A stretch of 64,000 bases of DNA from Desulfoscipio sp. XC116. Lineage in GTDB: Bacteria > Bacillota > Desulfotomaculia > Desulfotomaculales > Desulfallaceae. A program made the translations under genes and the position numbers. Position 1 is the stretch's first letter, and every line of letters starts with the position of its first letter. Under the pieces are notes generated by a model. That model was not told where the DNA came from. It was given only the letters and a program-made list of their open reading frames with translations, and did no database searches. Below are positions 3,229 through 57,853 of the stretch, one piece after another. The DNA lies in the NCBI RefSeq assembly GCF_039851975.1, contig NZ_CP156660.1, positions 806,001 to 870,000 on the forward strand. Reading direction: 5' to 3'.

Positions 3229-5712
3229 ATGGCTATTGCAGAGGTTTTATCTCCTCAGGAATTACGGTTGGTTGCTGAAAAAGCAGAACAAAAATCCGGT
3301 GGTTTTTTAAGAGAACGAACCTCTAAGATTTACCGCTCGTTTGCTTTTTCAAAACCGCGGATTGATATTGAGCGGGCGAAATATTTTACCGAGTCTTTTA
3401 AGGCAACTGAGGGACAACCGCTCGTTCTCAGATGGGCAAAGGCACTCTATCATATTGCTGGAAATATACCGGTCTACATTGATGACTGCCAGCTGCTCGC
3501 GGGGAGAGTCGGTTGTCCGGGGAAACACGGTTTAATTTACCCGGAACTTGACGGCTGTTTTCTCGATAAAATATCTGAAAACGTAAAGAATCGAAAAAAT
3601 ACGCCTTTTGACCTTACCGATGAAGATGCTAAGATTATTGATAGTGAAATAGCGCCTTACTGGAAAGGCAAAAGCTTTTACGATGAATTAGCCTATTCAT
3701 TTCCCGAGGATGTTCTTAAAGTTACCTATAATCCTGAGAATATCTACGAAGCCCGCTTTATTGTGAACGAAACGGCATCAATGCGTTCAGCTCTTCAATG
3801 GGTGCATGACTATGAAAAACCCATCGCGAAAGGTTTTAAAGCTATTAAGGAAGATGCTGAGAAAGAGCTCGCGGCATTAGATCCCATGGAACCAACAGAT
3901 ATGGTTGATAAAGCTCCATTTCTGCAAGCTGTGATTATCGTTTCAGATGCTATTATTCTTTGGGCTAAACGTCATGCGCAATTAGCACGGGAAATGGCTG
4001 CCAAAGAAACGGACTCTATCCGTCGAGGCGAACTACAAACTATAGCCGAGATTTGTAGTCGAGTACCTGAATATCCGGCGCGTAATTTCCGTGAGGCATT
4101 ACAGTGCCAATGGTTTACCCAATCGTTTTCTCGCCTTGAGCAAAAAACAGGAGCAACAATTTCTAACGGGAGAATGGACCAATATCTTTATCCATATTAT
4201 AAAAAGGATTTGGATGCAGGCCTGATTGACGAAGAACAGGCTAAGGAACTTTTGGAATGCATGTGGCTTGGAATGGCACAATATTTAGATCTCTATATCA
4301 GTCCGGCCGGGGCTAACTTATATTCAGGAAGTGCACACTGGGAAGCCGTTACTATCGGTGGGGTTGATGAAAAAGGTGATGATGCGACAAATGAATTAAC
4401 CTATGTCTTCCTTCATTCAAAACGGGGATTTCCGTTCAATTATCCTGATTTAGCGGCGCGCGTTCACTCTTTGTCGCCGGAAAGATACCTCTATGAGGTT
4501 GCGGAAACGGTCAAAGATGGATCGGGCTTTCCTAAACTCATTAACGATGAAGAAGTTATTCCTTTCCTGTTGGCGAAAGGGGCTGACATTGCACAAGCCA
4601 ATACTTATGCCGTATCTGGCTGCACAGAGTCAAGAATGCCGAACCTTGATACCTTTACTACTCCTTGTCCCTATGTTAATCTGGGTGCAGCTCTTGAGCT
4701 GACGTTAAATAACGGGCGCATGAAGACCTATGGTGATGAACTGCTTACAATTGAAACAGGCGAATTAAAAGATTTCAAAACCTGGGAAGACTTTTGGCAG
4801 GCCTATTTGGCACAACAAGAGTACTTGCTGAAACAAGCTTTTAAGCAACTTTATATTATTATTAAATTGCGGGAAAAACACTTTGCATCACCCTTTGGTT
4901 CTTCACTGCATGAACTGTGCTTAAAAAATCATAAAGATTTGCATTCCGCTTATATTGATGGTGGCGTTGAAATTGGGTATTTCGATTTTATCGGTTATGG
5001 AACGGTCGTTGATTCGCTCTGTGCGATCAAAGAGACGGTCTTTGATAGGCAAAAACTAAGCCTGGAAAAATTGTGCGAAGTGTTGGACAAGAACTTTGAG
5101 GGATATGAAGATATTCGCCAGATGTTGATGAAGTCTCCGAAATATGGTAACAATGATTCTGTTGCCGATTCCATTGCCAAAGACATTGACCTGGAAGGGC
5201 TAAAATTTGCGCACAAATATTCAAAGAAAATGGGCTTTCATATTAACTTGCGCTATGTTCCGGTTACATCCCATATTCCTTTCGGAAAAATCGTTCATGC
5301 CACGCCAAATGGAAGAAAAGCTGGGATGTATCTATCCGACGGCTCATCTGCTGCTCATGGTGCCGATGTCAAAGGACCAACGGCAGTATTAATGTCAAAC
5401 TACAATTCAAAGAATCGTGGTTATCATGAACGGGCATCAAGGCTTTTAAACATTAAACTTACCCCGGCTTGTGTTGCAGGTGACGAGGGAACCCATAACT
5501 TAATGTCCTTTATCCGCGGTTGGTGTGACTTAAAATTATGGCACGTGCAGTTTAATATTATTAATCAATCAACCCTGTTAGCTGCGAAAAAGAATCCGGA
5601 ACAATATAGAGATCTGTTGGTTCGTGTTGCCGGCTATAGTGCCTACTTTGTCGATTTGTCACCGGAACTGCAAGACGATATTATTGCCAGAACGGCGCAT
5701 TCTGTCATCTGA
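3229..5712 (+). CDS. Glycyl radical enzyme, probable sulfonate C-S (sulfite) lyase
   Basis: An 827-residue pyruvate-formate-lyase-family enzyme. The C-terminal glycyl radical motif RVAGYSA carries the radical glycine at 802. The thiyl cysteine and adjacent acid are Cys465 and Glu467 in SGCTE. Arg186, Gln190, Trp371 and Arg675 are placed like the sulfonate-binding residues I recall for Bilophila isethionate sulfite-lyase (Arg189, Gln193, Trp374, Arg678, with Cys468, Glu470, Gly805): every position is offset by exactly three. Neither the pyruvate-formate-lyase CC pair nor a GCVE-type active site is present. The expected reaction is radical release of sulfite from isethionate or 2,3-dihydroxypropane-1-sulfonate; choice between them is open, and a propanediol/choline-type eliminase is a less likely alternative. 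The activase follows directly. The enzyme is oxygen-sensitive and cytoplasmic. Confidence 0.75.
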   Translation: MAIAEVLSPQELRLVAEKAEQKSGGFLRERTSKIYRSFAFSKPRIDIERAKYFTESFKATEGQPLVLRWAKALYHIAGNIPVYIDDCQLLAGRVGCPGKHGLIYPELDGCFLDKISENVKNRKNTPFDLTDEDAKIIDSEIAPYWKGKSFYDELAYSFPEDVLKVTYNPENIYEARFIVNETASMRSALQWVHDYEKPIAKGFKAIKEDAEKELAALDPMEPTDMVDKAPFLQAVIIVSDAIILWAKRHAQLAREMAAKETDSIRRGELQTIAEICSRVPEYPARNFREALQCQWFTQSFSRLEQKTGATISNGRMDQYLYPYYKKDLDAGLIDEEQAKELLECMWLGMAQYLDLYISPAGANLYSGSAHWEAVTIGGVDEKGDDATNELTYVFLHSKRGFPFNYPDLAARVHSLSPERYLYEVAETVKDGSGFPKLINDEEVIPFLLAKGADIAQANTYAVSGCTESRMPNLDTFTTPCPYVNLGAALELTLNNGRMKTYGDELLTIETGELKDFKTWEDFWQAYLAQQEYLLKQAFKQLYIIIKLREKHFASPFGSSLHELCLKNHKDLHSAYIDGGVEIGYFDFIGYGTVVDSLCAIKETVFDRQKLSLEKLCEVLDKNFEGYEDIRQMLMKSPKYGNNDSVADSIAKDIDLEGLKFAHKYSKKMGFHINLRYVPVTSHIPFGKIVHATPNGRKAGMYLSDGSSAAHGADVKGPTAVLMSNYNSKNRGYHERASRLLNIKLTPACVAGDEGTHNLMSFIRGWCDLKLWHVQFNIINQSTLLAAKKNPEQYRDLLVRVAGYSAYFVDLSPELQDDIIARTAHSVI

Positions 5713-5739
5713 GAATGTACCTAATTGGGGGATAGTTCA

Positions 5740-6660
5740 ATGAGTCTTGATAACAGAAAAGTTGGTACCGTCTTTAACATTCAAAAATTCTCGGTACATG
5801 ATGGACCTGGGATACGAACCATCGTGTTTCTTAAAGGATGTCCCTTAATCTGTGCTTGGTGTAGTAATCCGGAATCGCAAAGTTTTGCACCGGAACTTGC
5901 ATGGAGTGCAAGCCGGTGCATGGGCTGCCATCTCTGTAAGGAGTCTTGCCCGCGGCAGGCCATTAGTTTGGGAGAGCATGGTGAGATCAAGATTAATCGC
6001 GACTTGTGTAAAAAATGTTTCAAATGTACTGATCTTTGCCCAACTACAGCGCTTAGGGTATTTGGACAACAGATGAGTGTTGAGGAAGTGCTGCATGAGG
6101 TCGAAGCGGATAACGCCTTTTATAGACGGTCTAAAGGCGGGATGACATTAAGTGGCGGAGAGGCGCTTCAGCAGGGGGACTATGCCGTTAATCTATTAAA
6201 AGAAGCAAAGCGCCGCGGCATTAGAACAGCCGTTGAAACTTGCGGATTTGTACAATGGTCGGTGCTTGAAGAAGCTTGTCATTATTTGGACACTGTTATC
6301 TATGATATTAAATGTCTTGATTCAGCCAAACACAAACAGCATACGACGGTTGGCAATGAATTGATTCTAAGCAATTTCAAAGAGATGTGTTCTCGTTTTC
6401 CTTATTTGAGAGTTATTGCGAGGACACCGATCATTCCCGGCTTTAATGATACAGAAGAAGATGTTTTAGGGATTATTAATTTTATTGAACCCTTCTCTAA
6501 TGTTAACTATGAACTTCTGCCCTACCACCGCTTGGGAGAACCCAAATATATCTCGCTTGAGCGTGAATATCTAATGGGTGATGTGAAGCTTAACGAGGAA
6601 ACATTTAAAAAGCTCAAGGTTTTAGCAAAGCACCGGCTGGGACAAAGGTCAGTGGGTTAG
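5740..6660 (+). CDS. Glycyl radical enzyme activating enzyme (radical SAM)
   Basis: A 306-residue radical SAM protein. The SAM-cluster motif CxxxCxxC is at Cys34, Cys38 and Cys41 within KGCPLICAWC. Two further ferredoxin-like 4Fe-4S sites follow (Cys60/63/66/70 and Cys90/93/96/100), the arrangement of activases that serve non-PFL glycyl radical enzymes. It abstracts the hydrogen from Gly802 of the partner encoded 27 bp upstream. The ATG at 5740 is preferred because GGGGGAT lies correctly before it; the in-frame TTG at 5725 overlaps that site. Confidence 0.92.
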   Translation: MSLDNRKVGTVFNIQKFSVHDGPGIRTIVFLKGCPLICAWCSNPESQSFAPELAWSASRCMGCHLCKESCPRQAISLGEHGEIKINRDLCKKCFKCTDLCPTTALRVFGQQMSVEEVLHEVEADNAFYRRSKGGMTLSGGEALQQGDYAVNLLKEAKRRGIRTAVETCGFVQWSVLEEACHYLDTVIYDIKCLDSAKHKQHTTVGNELILSNFKEMCSRFPYLRVIARTPIIPGFNDTEEDVLGIINFIEPFSNVNYELLPYHRLGEPKYISLEREYLMGDVKLNEETFKKLKVLAKHRLGQRSVG

Positions 6661-6702
6661 CGTTTTTTACTTGAGTTGGATGAAGCCATGGTGGAATATT
6701 GA

Positions 6703-6733
6703 AGAGAGACTGATTTTTATTAGTCTCTCTTTC
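6703..6733 (+). terminator. Intrinsic terminator after GRE activase
   Basis: AGAGAGACT (6703-6711) and AGTCTCTCT (6722-6730) form a perfect 9-bp stem followed by a short T-rich stretch. It would end or weaken the transcript before the TauE-type gene. Confidence 0.6.
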
Positions 6734-6820
6734 TCCATCTGTTTTCGATACTCTGTTTCGATATTAATGCAGTAAGAATTACTTTGGCTAAAAGTGATGA
6801 AGAACAAGAAGGTTTTGCTA

Positions 6821-7540
6821 ATGAATATATTTGCCCTCATATTAATTGTATTTATTGCCTCAATTTTACAGACAGCGACTGGATTTGGATTCGCTATTAT
6901 GGCTGTTCCATGCCTTCTGGCAGTTTTTGAACCTCATGATGCCATAGAGTTAAATATCATTCTTTCCTTTCTAATCGCATTCTTTTTGAACTTAAAAATT
7001 TACGATAGAGTGGATAGAGAGACTCTAAAACGTTTGATAATCGGTAGTTTATTTGGAATACCACCGGGGCTCCTGATTTTTTTATATTTGGATGTGCGTC
7101 TTTTGAAAGTATTAGTTAGCATACTTATACTTTCATCAACTTGTTTATTGGTAGCAAAGGTTAAATTCCAGCAGAGTAAGATAAAAGAGTTGATTGTAGG
7201 TGTTTTTTCAGGTTTACTTACTACAAGTATCGGTATGCCCGGGCCTCCGTTAATGATTTATTATGCCGGCAATGAGGTTGATAAAGAAACGTTGCGGAGT
7301 ACGACGATAGCCTACTGTGTATTTGTAAATATTATTAGCTTCTTTCTTCAATTTTTCTTTTATCATACCTCTAAAATTGTTTGGGTATCGACATTATGGT
7401 CTATCCCCTTTATGCTGTTAGGCGTTTTTTTGGGACAGTTAATATTTGTTCGTTTGAATCAAGATTTTTTAAAAAGGATAGTTATTAACGTCTTATTATT
7501 TATAACGGGTATCTATTTGCTAATAACAACAATATATTAG
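6821..7540 (+). CDS. TauE/SafE-family membrane transporter (probable sulfite/sulfonate exporter)
   Basis: About 239 residues with 7-8 hydrophobic helices. The family's two conserved repeats are visible: ATGFGFAIM near the first helix and the SIGMPGPPLMIYY segment in the middle. TauE/SafE proteins are anion exporters often found next to sulfonate catabolism, where they remove sulfite or sulfoacetate. Its position right after a predicted sulfite-releasing enzyme supports that role and in turn supports the GRE assignment. Start 6821 is chosen for AGAAGG eight bases upstream; GTG 6794 and ATG 6797 are in frame but lack such a site. Confidence 0.8.
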   Translation: MNIFALILIVFIASILQTATGFGFAIMAVPCLLAVFEPHDAIELNIILSFLIAFFLNLKIYDRVDRETLKRLIIGSLFGIPPGLLIFLYLDVRLLKVLVSILILSSTCLLVAKVKFQQSKIKELIVGVFSGLLTTSIGMPGPPLMIYYAGNEVDKETLRSTTIAYCVFVNIISFFLQFFFYHTSKIVWVSTLWSIPFMLLGVFLGQLIFVRLNQDFLKRIVINVLLFITGIYLLITTIY

Positions 7541-7902: not shown

Positions 7903-9261
7903 TTATCGCAAATTCATTTTTTGCAAGGCTTGTTCAGAAGCTATGGTAATAGGTTCACGACTGGGCTCGGAAGAACAGTCGGGGTTTCCGGCACACATCA
8001 GAGTGGTCATTTGCTTTGCAGTCATTCCCCCTAGAATGAGAGCATTAATGGTATCTATTTCTTTTACAGGTGCCACAGTATTGCTGATAATTTGTCCGCC
8101 CAGCAGTTTTTGCGTGATTTTATCAAATACCAGTTTTAGCGTCCAAGACTCATTTCCCGGGATCATCCTATGCTTGCTGCTGGAATCGACCGTCACTCCC
8201 AAAGCGTTAAATCCTTCTTTTGCAGCCTGGTCTTCATTCAGCCCGGTGGCGCCGATATATTTATTAAAAATACGCACTGCTGAATTATTCAAAACCCCTG
8301 GAAAAGGAATATTATAGCCGGCAAGCCTTTTGGCAATAAGGCGCCCCTGGATAACTGCCGGTCCGCGCAATAAAGAGGGTGCTAACTTTTTAGTGATGAA
8401 ATGTTCCGTTTCGATAATATCCCCGCCCGCTAAGATATCGGGGTTGGAAGTTTCCAGGTATTCATTTACTTTAAGTCCGGTTTTTCCTATTTCTAATCCT
8501 GCTTCTCTGGCTAGTTCCAGGTTAGGGCGGGTACCTACGGAAAGCACCACCATATCCGCATCTAAAATTTCCCTATTGTCCAGTATTACACCGCTGACCG
8601 CTCCATTTTTCCCCATAATCTCCGTTACTTTTTGCTTTGTTTTTAGCTGAAAACCCTGCTCCTTTAAAAAATTAGTTGCAATTTGCCCCATTTCTTTGTC
8701 CAGCATGAGTGGAAGCGGGTGCTCTAACAGTTCAATAATCGTTATATCGTATACACCAGGATTTTCCTCGCTAAGAAGTGCAGCCAACTCAAGATTCAGG
8801 AAACCGGCTCCCACAAAAACCAGCTTTTGGGGATGTTTGTTTTGCAAATAATTTTGTATTTTTTGGGCGTCGGGAGCGTTGCGCAAAGTAAAAACACCCT
8901 GCAGTTCATTGCCCGGTATAGGAGGAACAAAGGGGCTGGCGCCGGTAGCAAGAACAAGTTTATCATAGGGTAATTTTCTTCCGGTAGAAATAGTTATATT
9001 TTTAGCGTTAACGTCCAAGGTGGTAACTCTGTCTATTATGAGATTAATTCCTGCGTCCGCAAACATCTTATCGGGATTTGTAATAGAATCGACAGTAGCC
9101 TGACCGGCCACCACATGGGGCAGAGCTCAACGGACAATAAAGCGTTCTTCCGCGCGAATAATGGTGACGTTAACATCCGGCATCAGTTTTTTAGCTAATA
9201 TTGCCGCAGGACCGCCCAATCCACCGCATCCAACAATAACCAACTGTTCACCTATTTGCAT
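7903..9261 (-). CDS. Selenocysteine-containing FAD/NAD(P)-dependent disulfide-type oxidoreductase
   Basis: One 452-residue protein read through an in-frame UGA (9127-9129) at codon 45. Without readthrough it would be two fragments that join exactly: the N-terminal dinucleotide motif VIVGCGGLGG (residues about 8-17) and the rest of a CoA-disulfide-reductase/NADH-oxidase fold with LATGASP, a second NAD motif VFVGAGFLNLELA and the FAD motif ILAGGDI. The UGA falls in RFIVR-U-ALPHVVAG, where the family has its redox-active cysteine, and a bacterial SECIS-like hairpin follows at 9095-9111. Near the C-terminus CAGNPDC could supply a partner thiol. Start 9261 has GGAGGGGG upstream. It is divergent from a MarR gene that may control it. 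Substrate unknown. Confidence 0.87.
9095..9129 (-). promoter_or_regulatory. UGA codon and bacterial SECIS-like hairpin
   Basis: Fifteen bases after the UGA, GTGGCC (9111-9106) pairs with GGCTAC (9100-9095) around the loop GGUCA. The stem length, the GU in the apical loop and the distance match the known formate dehydrogenase SECIS of E. coli. This supports selenocysteine insertion rather than a nonsense mutation. Confidence 0.75.
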
Positions 9262-9514: not shown

Positions 9515-9561
9515 TTGACTTTATGTTGTTAGCATGTTAACGTTATTGTTAGCATGCTAAC
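9515..9561 (+). promoter_or_regulatory. Tandem palindromic operators before the MarR gene
   Basis: GTTAGCATGTTAAC (9528-9541) and GTTAGCATGCTAAC (9548-9561) are two near-identical dyads centred 20 bp apart, so on the same DNA face. A TTGACT -35-like element precedes them at 9515. They fit MarR-family binding sites and suggest autoregulation and control of the divergent selenoprotein oxidoreductase gene. Confidence 0.65.
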
Positions 9562-10036
9562 ATATAGTATTGGGGGGATAAAAATAGAGCAAAACGAAGA
9601 TGCACTGGATCGCTACCTTTCAAAGCGCACGCTATATGAACTAAAAACGACTTGGGAAGCTATAGAGGATGTTTTTTCTATTCATTTTGCCCGTTACGGC
9701 CTTTCCTCGGCTAAATTCAACGCCCTGGTTCATCTGTACATGGCGGGTGATCATGGATTAACACAGTCGGAATTGGGTAAAAAGGTACTGGCCTCCCGGC
9801 CCACAATTTCAGGGCTTGTTGAACGATTGGAGAAAGAAGACCTTGTGGTTCGAAATACCGACCCCGCGGATAAAAGGGTGTTTCGGGTCTGCCTCACCAA
9901 CAGGGCTTTTGCGCTGATGCACGCCTTCCTGCCCGTACACAATGATTACATGCATAAAGTTATGTCCGTTCTTGACAGACATGGCAGGGAAGCATTGATT
10001 TCACTGCTGGAAAAAATAAAAAAAGGATTGGGTTGA
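9554..10036 (+). CDS. MarR-family transcriptional regulator
   Basis: Up to 160 residues with the MarR winged helix: ...SSAKFNALVHLYMAG, LTQSELGKKVLASRPTISGL as recognition helix, and the wing with DPADKRVFRVCLT. The only canonical in-frame start is ATG 9554, but it sits inside the second operator palindrome and lacks a ribosome-binding site. A GGGGGG run at about 9571-9576 suggests that translation could really begin a little later at a rare ATT/ATA codon near 9584, just before EQNEDALDRYL. Next to the divergent Sec-oxidoreductase and followed by a Fe-S protein gene, it may respond to redox or sulfur compounds; the ligand is unknown. Confidence 0.88.
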   Translation: MLTYSIGGIKIEQNEDALDRYLSKRTLYELKTTWEAIEDVFSIHFARYGLSSAKFNALVHLYMAGDHGLTQSELGKKVLASRPTISGLVERLEKEDLVVRNTDPADKRVFRVCLTNRAFALMHAFLPVHNDYMHKVMSVLDRHGREALISLLEKIKKGLG

Positions 10037-14979: not shown

Positions 14980-15264
14980 TTGCTATTGTCCCTCCACTTT
15001 GACAAAAGACATATTCATCGATAAGAGGGGGGAAAATATTAATATATCTTTTTAGTATCATTTTCTCCCGCAACCTGGCAATCATTGCGCTGCAGATAAT
15101 CTTAAGCGCTTTAGACCCATGGCTTTGCGCCCTAATCTTTCGATGTAGTTTGCCTTTGTGAAACAGATATTAAAAATAAATTAAGCATATTATATAACTA
15201 TAAGGTTACATATTTCAACAAAAATAAACCACTTGTATGCATCGTAAAAAATTGAGGTTTAGAA

Positions 15265-39524: not shown

Positions 39525-39713
39525 TTCGATAATAATTAACCCGGCAGTACGTTTTTATCTTTCGACCAATAACTTATTAATTGGCTAAATAGGGCTGTGA
39601 TTATGTTATAAAACGAGATATTTTGGCAGAATGACCATTTAGTTGTTTGACTATCTAAAATCAAAGGCATAAAATAACATGGTAAGCCTTATTAAGGGAG
39701 GCGCATAAAAATT

Positions 39714-39836
39714 TTGTCACCGAATTCCCGTTGTGGGAAACGGGGGAACCACTTTGGGGGTGAAATGCAAATTTGCATGGGGCTAACACTTCGGTCCCAA
39801 CCCGTCAGCTAACCTCGTAGGTGTGGAAAGTGAGGC
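39714..39836 (+). ncRNA. c-di-AMP riboswitch (ydaO/yuaA type)
   Basis: The region carries the conserved features of the ydaO motif: CGGGGGAACC, GGGGGTGAAAT, GGGGCTAACACTTCGGTCCC and AACCCGTCAGCTAACCTCGTAG before GTGTGGAAAGTGAG. It ends four bases before a cell-wall hydrolase gene, the commonest target class of this riboswitch. The longest conserved block is quoted in two parts only by description; identity is recognised by pattern. Confidence 0.85.
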
Positions 39837-39839
39837 ATC

Positions 39840-57393: not shown

Positions 57394-57707
57394 ATTTTTA
57401 CAATCCCCCTTTCCTCTAAATTTGTAAATTTAACCTTTATTCTAAAGGTCACCAGGCCGGAGGTGTTTTTCCCGGACCTGTAATAGAACAGCTCCTTGCT
57501 CCAGGGTTTTAGCACTTAACAAAAAATGAGCTTAATCAAATATATGCTTGACAAGTGAAAAAAGTGAGAAAATTGTTCATAGACATTCATGCCGCTATGC
57601 GGTTTGGGATTGCTTTGCTTGCGCCCGCAATGACAGTTGCCATTTTACCTAAACGCTTGCGTTATATAAAAGCTTGCAATATAATAAAAAAAACCAAATA
57701 TTTATTA

Positions 57708-57853
57708 GCGCTAGGGGTGCCCGGAAAGTCCGGGCTGAGAGGGGCCGCACTGAGAAGAGGCCTAAACCCTTGAACCTGACCTGGATAATACCAGCGGAGG
57801 AAAGCGGCAGAAATTGCACTTATCCCTTCCAACCTGGAAGGGATTTTAGTTTA
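57708..57853 (+). ncRNA. TPP riboswitch with terminator platform
   Basis: The thi-box aptamer has TAGGGGTGCCCGG, CCGGGCTGAGAGG, CCTTGAACCTGACCTGGATA and ATACCAGCGGAGGAAAG in order. ATCCCTTCC (57822-57830) and GGAAGGGAT (57836-57844) followed by TTT form the terminator. It lies 127 bp before thiC and should switch it off when thiamine pyrophosphate is plentiful. The region 57394-57707 holds no gene. Confidence 0.95.

Follow-up and report, generated by a model that had tools for sequence, protein, structure and literature searches.

The in-frame UGA at codon 45 of a flavoprotein gene in Desulfoscipio sp. XC116 is, we are near certain, decoded as selenocysteine (Sec). The gene lies in the window, the 64,000-nucleotide stretch of DNA analysed here. 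In its full form, to which we give a probability of about 0.93, our reading is that the product is a genuine selenoprotein, an FAD/NAD(P)H flavoenzyme of a separate subfamily, in which UGA 45 is read as Sec by way of SelB, tRNA-Sec and a hairpin downstream of the codon (Table 1). The selenoprotein subfamily gained in this way is well supported, and standard annotation would cut its genes short or label them pseudogenes.

Table 1. Coordinates of the flavoprotein gene, its elements and the neighbouring regulator in the window.
Feature	Position	Strand	Remarks
Flavoprotein gene	7903..9261	-	452 codons, ATG at 9261, one internal UGA, stop TAA 7905-7903
In-frame UGA, codon 45	9127..9129 (9129-9127)	-	at the catalytic Cys column; read as selenocysteine
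SECIS-like hairpin	9092..9114	-	9 bp, loop GGUCA at 9105-9101
C423-x5-C429 segment	7975..7995	-	replaces the LAYAPP Tyr motif of canonical relatives
MarR-type regulator	9554..10036	+	divergent, 292 bp from the flavoprotein gene; start codon uncertain
Two 14-bp palindromes, GTTAGCATG(T/C)TAAC	9528..9561		20 bp apart, one perfect, at the marR start

The initial annotation placed an in-frame UGA at the family's catalytic cysteine and held the frame to be intact on either side of it. Both points stand: the gene is a single minus-strand frame with one TGA, preceded by a ribosome-binding-like stretch upstream of its ATG, and all 16 aligned orthologues have either Cys or UGA in column 45. Pfam models Pyr_redox_2, Pyr_redox and Pyr_redox_dim match the translation, with PF07992 (176.9 bits) and PF02852 (41.7 bits) over cut-off, and the protein is a member of the pyridine nucleotide-disulfide oxidoreductase superfamily with FAD and NAD folds, where we place it in the single-Cys branch of CoA-disulfide/persulfide reductases. 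An AlphaFold2 model based on an alignment of 16 orthologues reaches a mean pLDDT of 87.1, and in it residue 45 sits where a helix (44-51) begins. The closest solved structures found with this model by Foldseek are 6pfz (E 3.9e-46), 5l1n and 4fx9, with full-length TMq of 0.86-0.90. Residue 45 falls on the catalytic Cys of CoA-disulfide/persulfide reductases whose structures are known. A plain open reading frame listing (table 11) gives only a 403-residue ORF at 7903-9114 and a stub before the UGA, as would be expected if the UGA were a true stop or a sequencing error, and the gene either a pseudogene or the source of a 403-residue product begun at GTG 9114. We regard this as very improbable. 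A start at GTG 9114 would cut off the active site along with the first FAD-binding strand, and the same UGA recurs in seven further orthologues from different genomes, which are 53-66% identical to the window protein, conserved on both sides of the UGA and intact in their N-terminal FAD-binding motif. On these seven genes we reject a pseudogene, a sequencing error and a downstream start alike.

Alignment with Cys-containing homologues had been named beforehand as a check, and at position 45 it holds only Cys or UGA. Among 200 related genomes, one (G066) has an orthologue-grade match, a Cys form at 43% identity; the remaining matches listed for this set are about 30-39% identical. A scan of contigs gave nine loci, seven of them with a full or nearly full gene: UGA stands at the same codon in two Deltaproteobacterial loci (66% and 63-64% identity), and Cys in five, namely four archaeal metagenome-assembled genomes (MAGs) and a Desulfotomaculum MAG, the same as G066. 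When 395 genomes from the phylum of one contig-scan genome were searched at E ≤ 1e-80, ten had matches, six with UGA and four with Cys. A ‘TAG’ flagged inside the match in G501 proved to be that gene's own terminal stop, with Cys at the site. With L066 and L033 counted once as one locus, likewise L003 and L037, and the Cys forms L034, L039 and L040 left out of the alignment, the 16 distinct orthologues divide into eight with UGA (the window included) and eight with Cys, and no other residue is seen. The motif at Sec is UALP in the window and six other Sec forms, and USLP in L075, a gene whose contig stops at residue 259 and which was therefore excluded from the tree and the codon score. All 43 rows of the wider family, which were picked for having the motif, carry Cys or UGA in the catalytic column. 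The closest Cys gene, L070, is 57% identical to the window protein, and natural Sec/Cys pairs such as L070 and its Sec relatives could reveal what selenium buys a single-thiol flavoenzyme.

The initial annotation had made its proposal depend on sel genes being present in the genome, and they are. In the window's genome (G000), selA (C1:1704817-1706199, 615 bits) is adjoined by selB (C1:1702898-1704781, 386 bits), and a tRNA-Sec gene with anticodon TCA, UCA in the RNA, lies at C1:1688923-1689017 (67 bits). There are also two selD genes (C1:1148662-1149579 and C1:112214-113134), each with one in-frame TGA, so that both are probably selenoproteins themselves. Among the eight Sec-form genomes, selA is found in six (not in G201 or G556) and selB over cut-off in six (not in G314 or G556); at least one of the two is present in every Sec-form genome except G556, a 1.3-Mb assembly. 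The close Cys relative G501 has both selA and selB, and its Cys is thus not explained by loss of the machinery. Near-cognate suppression, in which Trp or Cys rather than Sec would be inserted at the UGA, is given next to no weight: the genome has the full Sec machinery, every relative without the UGA has Cys in column 45, and at SECIS distance there is a hairpin with frozen codons. For decoding as Sec, the alternation of UGA and Cys together with the frozen hairpin codons makes the UGA at 45 more than a chance event.

That hairpin, first noticed for its GGUCA loop at SECIS distance from the UGA, withstands closer analysis. Its stem starts 12 nt and its loop 21 nt past the UGA, and a scan for terminator-like sites picked up the same structure (9114-9092) independently. 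In seven of eight Sec genes the best local hairpin places its 5-nt loop exactly 21 nt past the UGA; in L069 a different hairpin scores best. Loop letters are GGUCU in five Sec genes, GGUCA in the window, GGGCU in one and GGUGU in one; GGUCU also occurs in the SECIS loop of E. coli fdhF. The bases invariant in all eight UGA genes are GTGGCCGG. When the 9-bp stem is placed on the eight genes, 88.9% of 72 cells are paired, against 24-64% when it is slid. The strongest test for constraint on the hairpin is codon use. In the seven full-length Sec genes, 150 codon columns keep their residue, and the commonest codon averages 57%; a single codon is used in just three of these 150 columns, two of which are codons +6 and +7, within the stem. 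The most codon-frozen five-codon stretch of the Sec gene runs from +4 to +8 after the UGA, and the Cys relative L070 has GTT and TCC at +6 and +7. Codons frozen exactly over the hairpin make this gene a clean test case for SECIS prediction.

Folding energies say less. The best hairpins of the eight Sec genes range from -7.8 to -15.1 kcal/mol, compared with -4.0 kcal/mol for L070 and 0 to -9.5 kcal/mol for the other seven Cys genes. Of 300 synonymous-codon versions of each Sec gene, those folding as well numbered 13 for the window, 1 for L032, 3 for L067, 101 for L033, 34 for L068, 78 for L069, 189 for L071 and 41 for L075, so that the hairpin energy lies at or below 5% of synonymous versions in only three of the eight, and the window's own is by itself weakly unusual. 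Base-pair covariation in the stem is not significant, its score being matched by 56 of 500 shuffles. For the window copy, the minimum free energy fold over 66 nt takes a shape other than the SECIS hairpin (z +1.17), and unrestricted 66-nt folding was replaced by the local, geometry-limited hairpin test. The window gene carries a SECIS-like hairpin with a small, G-bearing apical loop, for which energy and covariation alone are weak evidence. As the gene sits in a Bacillota genome and its nearest relatives found are Deltaproteobacterial, the hairpin would need to function with SelB from two phyla.

The protein was initially described as CoA-disulfide-reductase-like, and likeness is as far as this goes: judged by curated models and active-site motifs, it is not a CoA-disulfide reductase (CoADR) proper. 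Its best NCBIfam model is TIGR03385 (CoA-disulfide reductase) at 254.4 bits, under the curated cut-off of 578.8, and NF007123 gives 233.5 bits where the cut-off is 458. The canonical motifs are absent, with U-A-L-P for C-G-x-P and no C-terminal LAYAPP-type Tyr motif. In a tree of 43 rows (seven of 50, L006, L009, L011, L012, L015, L026 and L031, were dropped for a missing N-terminal motif), the Sec (UALP) proteins and L070 form one clade with support 100/99, within which the placement of L070 relative to the Sec rows is not firm (78/87). Its sister is a clade of archaeal and bacterial Cys proteins with an R-C-x-P motif (100/98), and canonical CoADRs are parted from both by a branch with support 100/99. 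On this tree Cys and Sec must have replaced one another at least twice, in a direction that cannot be told because the root was not inferred. The Cys-form sister subfamily, 42-45% identical to the window protein, occurs in MAGs of Methanophagales, Methanosarcinales and Syntrophoarchaeum, in one Desulfotomaculum MAG and in three genomes of the phylum to which G201 belongs; it has the conserved CAGQPE C-terminus in common with the window's subfamily, and differs in having Cys for Sec and the second C-terminal Cys in none of seven rows. Two canonical Cys relatives are encoded in the window's own genome (C1:2184901 and C1:3062300).

Selenocysteine has been listed in this superfamily before. The tables of PMC13188914 and PMC9312934 contain a UGxP-type Sec protein named FAD-dependent oxidoreductase (CoA-disulfide reductase, NADH oxidase; WP_011365774.1), those of PMC1794560 a ‘NADH oxidase’ selenoprotein of Geobacter metallireducens; another Sec FAD oxidoreductase, of COG1252, is listed in PMC12013277. 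Our flavoprotein could simply belong to the listed UGxP family: superfamily and catalytic column are the same, the same Cys position being, by motif, replaced by Sec in both, and TIGR03385, its best model, is the one under which the review tables place the Sec form. We think this improbable, as the score falls far short of the cut-off, UALP stands where UGxP would, and the LAYAPP Tyr is replaced. The tree also argues against it, judged on stand-ins of the UGIP type. A search with the canonical CoADR motif plus a UGA pattern found hits in two of 395 genomes, drawn from the phylum of G201; both are open CoADR-type frames with U-G-I-P (L088 and L089) and may represent the previously listed UGxP type, which their motif fits. 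They are long branches, 28-30% identical to the window protein, and sit among canonical relatives in the other half of the tree, beyond the 100/99 branch. The UALP subfamily appears to be new as a selenoprotein, within a superfamily and at a Sec position that were already known. Neither the literature searched, which lies mostly outside subscription journals, nor the passages cited above mention a subfamily of the UALP type. That literature also yielded nothing linking a selenoprotein with persulfide reductase, or Tyr419 with CoADR, and nothing on horizontally acquired selenocysteine genes in Desulfoscipio.

Among characterized enzymes, the window protein shares its full-length fold, catalytic Cys column and FAD and NAD domains both with the NAD-dependent persulfide reductase of Archaeoglobus fulgidus (6pfz) and with the enzymes by which Pyrococcus horikoshii reduces CoA disulfide and persulfide/polysulfide (5l1n, 4fx9). 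It differs from all three in sequence (about 30-32% identity), in Sec for Cys and in lacking the LAYAPP Tyr motif, and it has no rhodanese domain (452 residues against 541 for 6pfz). The C-terminal CxxxxxC-type pair pointed out at the start consists of C423 and C429. Within the subfamily that contains the UALP proteins, the column of the LAYAPP Tyr is Gly in 14 of 15 rows and Cys in L071; C423 precedes this column by two positions, again in 14 of 15 rows. C429 is present in six of seven full-length Sec forms and in none of eight Cys forms; the Sec form L071 lacks both cysteines. In S. aureus CoADR, Y361 and Y419 are catalytic and supplied by the partner subunit, and we take these tyrosines to match the LAYAPP Tyr. 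In relatives, the segment corresponding to the one that bears C429 probably reaches the partner subunit's active site. Mutant forms of the S. aureus enzyme altered at Y361 and Y419 have solved structures, as their titles state, and canonical relatives work with a single active-site thiol, bound CoA and partner-subunit residues in the active site, according to PMC6026696.

By analogy with these relatives, the flavoprotein most likely reduces per-/polysulfides or disulfides at the expense of NAD(P)H; action on sulfur or selenium compounds, as first suggested, is putative. Hydride would pass from NAD(P)H to FAD and on to Sec45, whose selenolate would attack the S-S (or S-Se) bond of a per-/polysulfide or disulfide, and the flavin would then re-reduce the selenenylsulfide product. 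Re-reduction might be aided by C423 and C429 of the partner subunit, thiols that perhaps stand in for CoA or for the LAYAPP Tyr; any use of CoA is putative. A bolder idea, which we put forward tentatively and consider rather unlikely, is that Sec arose independently, at one and the same position close to the flavin, in two subfamilies of single-Cys disulfide reductases and is here paired with C429 in a thioredoxin reductase-like, CoA-independent Sec-thiol relay.

The genomic surroundings say little about function. The MarR regulator reported next to the gene is indeed its neighbour, and control of the flavoprotein by it is putative. The palindromes at the marR start are likely the MarR operator; they adjoin marR, with 267 bp separating them from the start of the flavoprotein gene, and MarR may therefore regulate its own gene only. 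Because the listed ATG at 9554 falls inside a palindrome, the true MarR start is probably downstream, with probably no obvious ATG, GTG or TTG. The flavoprotein gene is alone on its strand, between the divergent marR and a convergent TauE-like gene (6794-7540). Upstream of the latter are genes that score over cut-off as (2S)-3-sulfopropanediol dehydratase and its activase, and the stretch 3229-7540, with dehydratase, activase and TauE-type exporter, is probably a sulfonate-using cluster. A search of the first 20 kb of the window, of 10 further stretches and of six contig loci brought up no operon conserved in the Sec clade. The partner genes seen were of disparate kinds (NuoF, NifU, acyl-CoA dehydratase activase, TmcC-like, release factor 3). 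A CGGC-domain-like neighbour occurs at two loci, Sec L033/L076 (by Pfam, L076:106-480) and Cys L003 (by eye). Canonical-type CoADR paralogues, 64% identical to each other, lie directly downstream of the Sec gene in two Sec-form genomes, at L078:3350-4690 and L081:8814-10208. In three archaeal MAGs (L034, L035 and L038) the Cys-form gene adjoins an McrA-like gene (coenzyme-B sulfoethylthiotransferase, alpha subunit), the L035 copy of which scores 627 bits, below the cut-off of 767.75.

The Sec gene sits in a Desulfotomaculum-related Bacillota genome, and the nearest relatives found are Deltaproteobacterial. An orthologue-grade match is absent from six other genomes of the genus and nine of the family, and together these distributions suggest that the gene was acquired by horizontal transfer. 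Base composition does not mark the gene out (44.4% GC, window 45.8%), and megablast found no plasmid match. Elsewhere the window holds c-di-GMP-I (15066-15164), c-di-AMP (39708-39839) and TPP (57703-57819) riboswitches, and rRNA genes from 60788 on.
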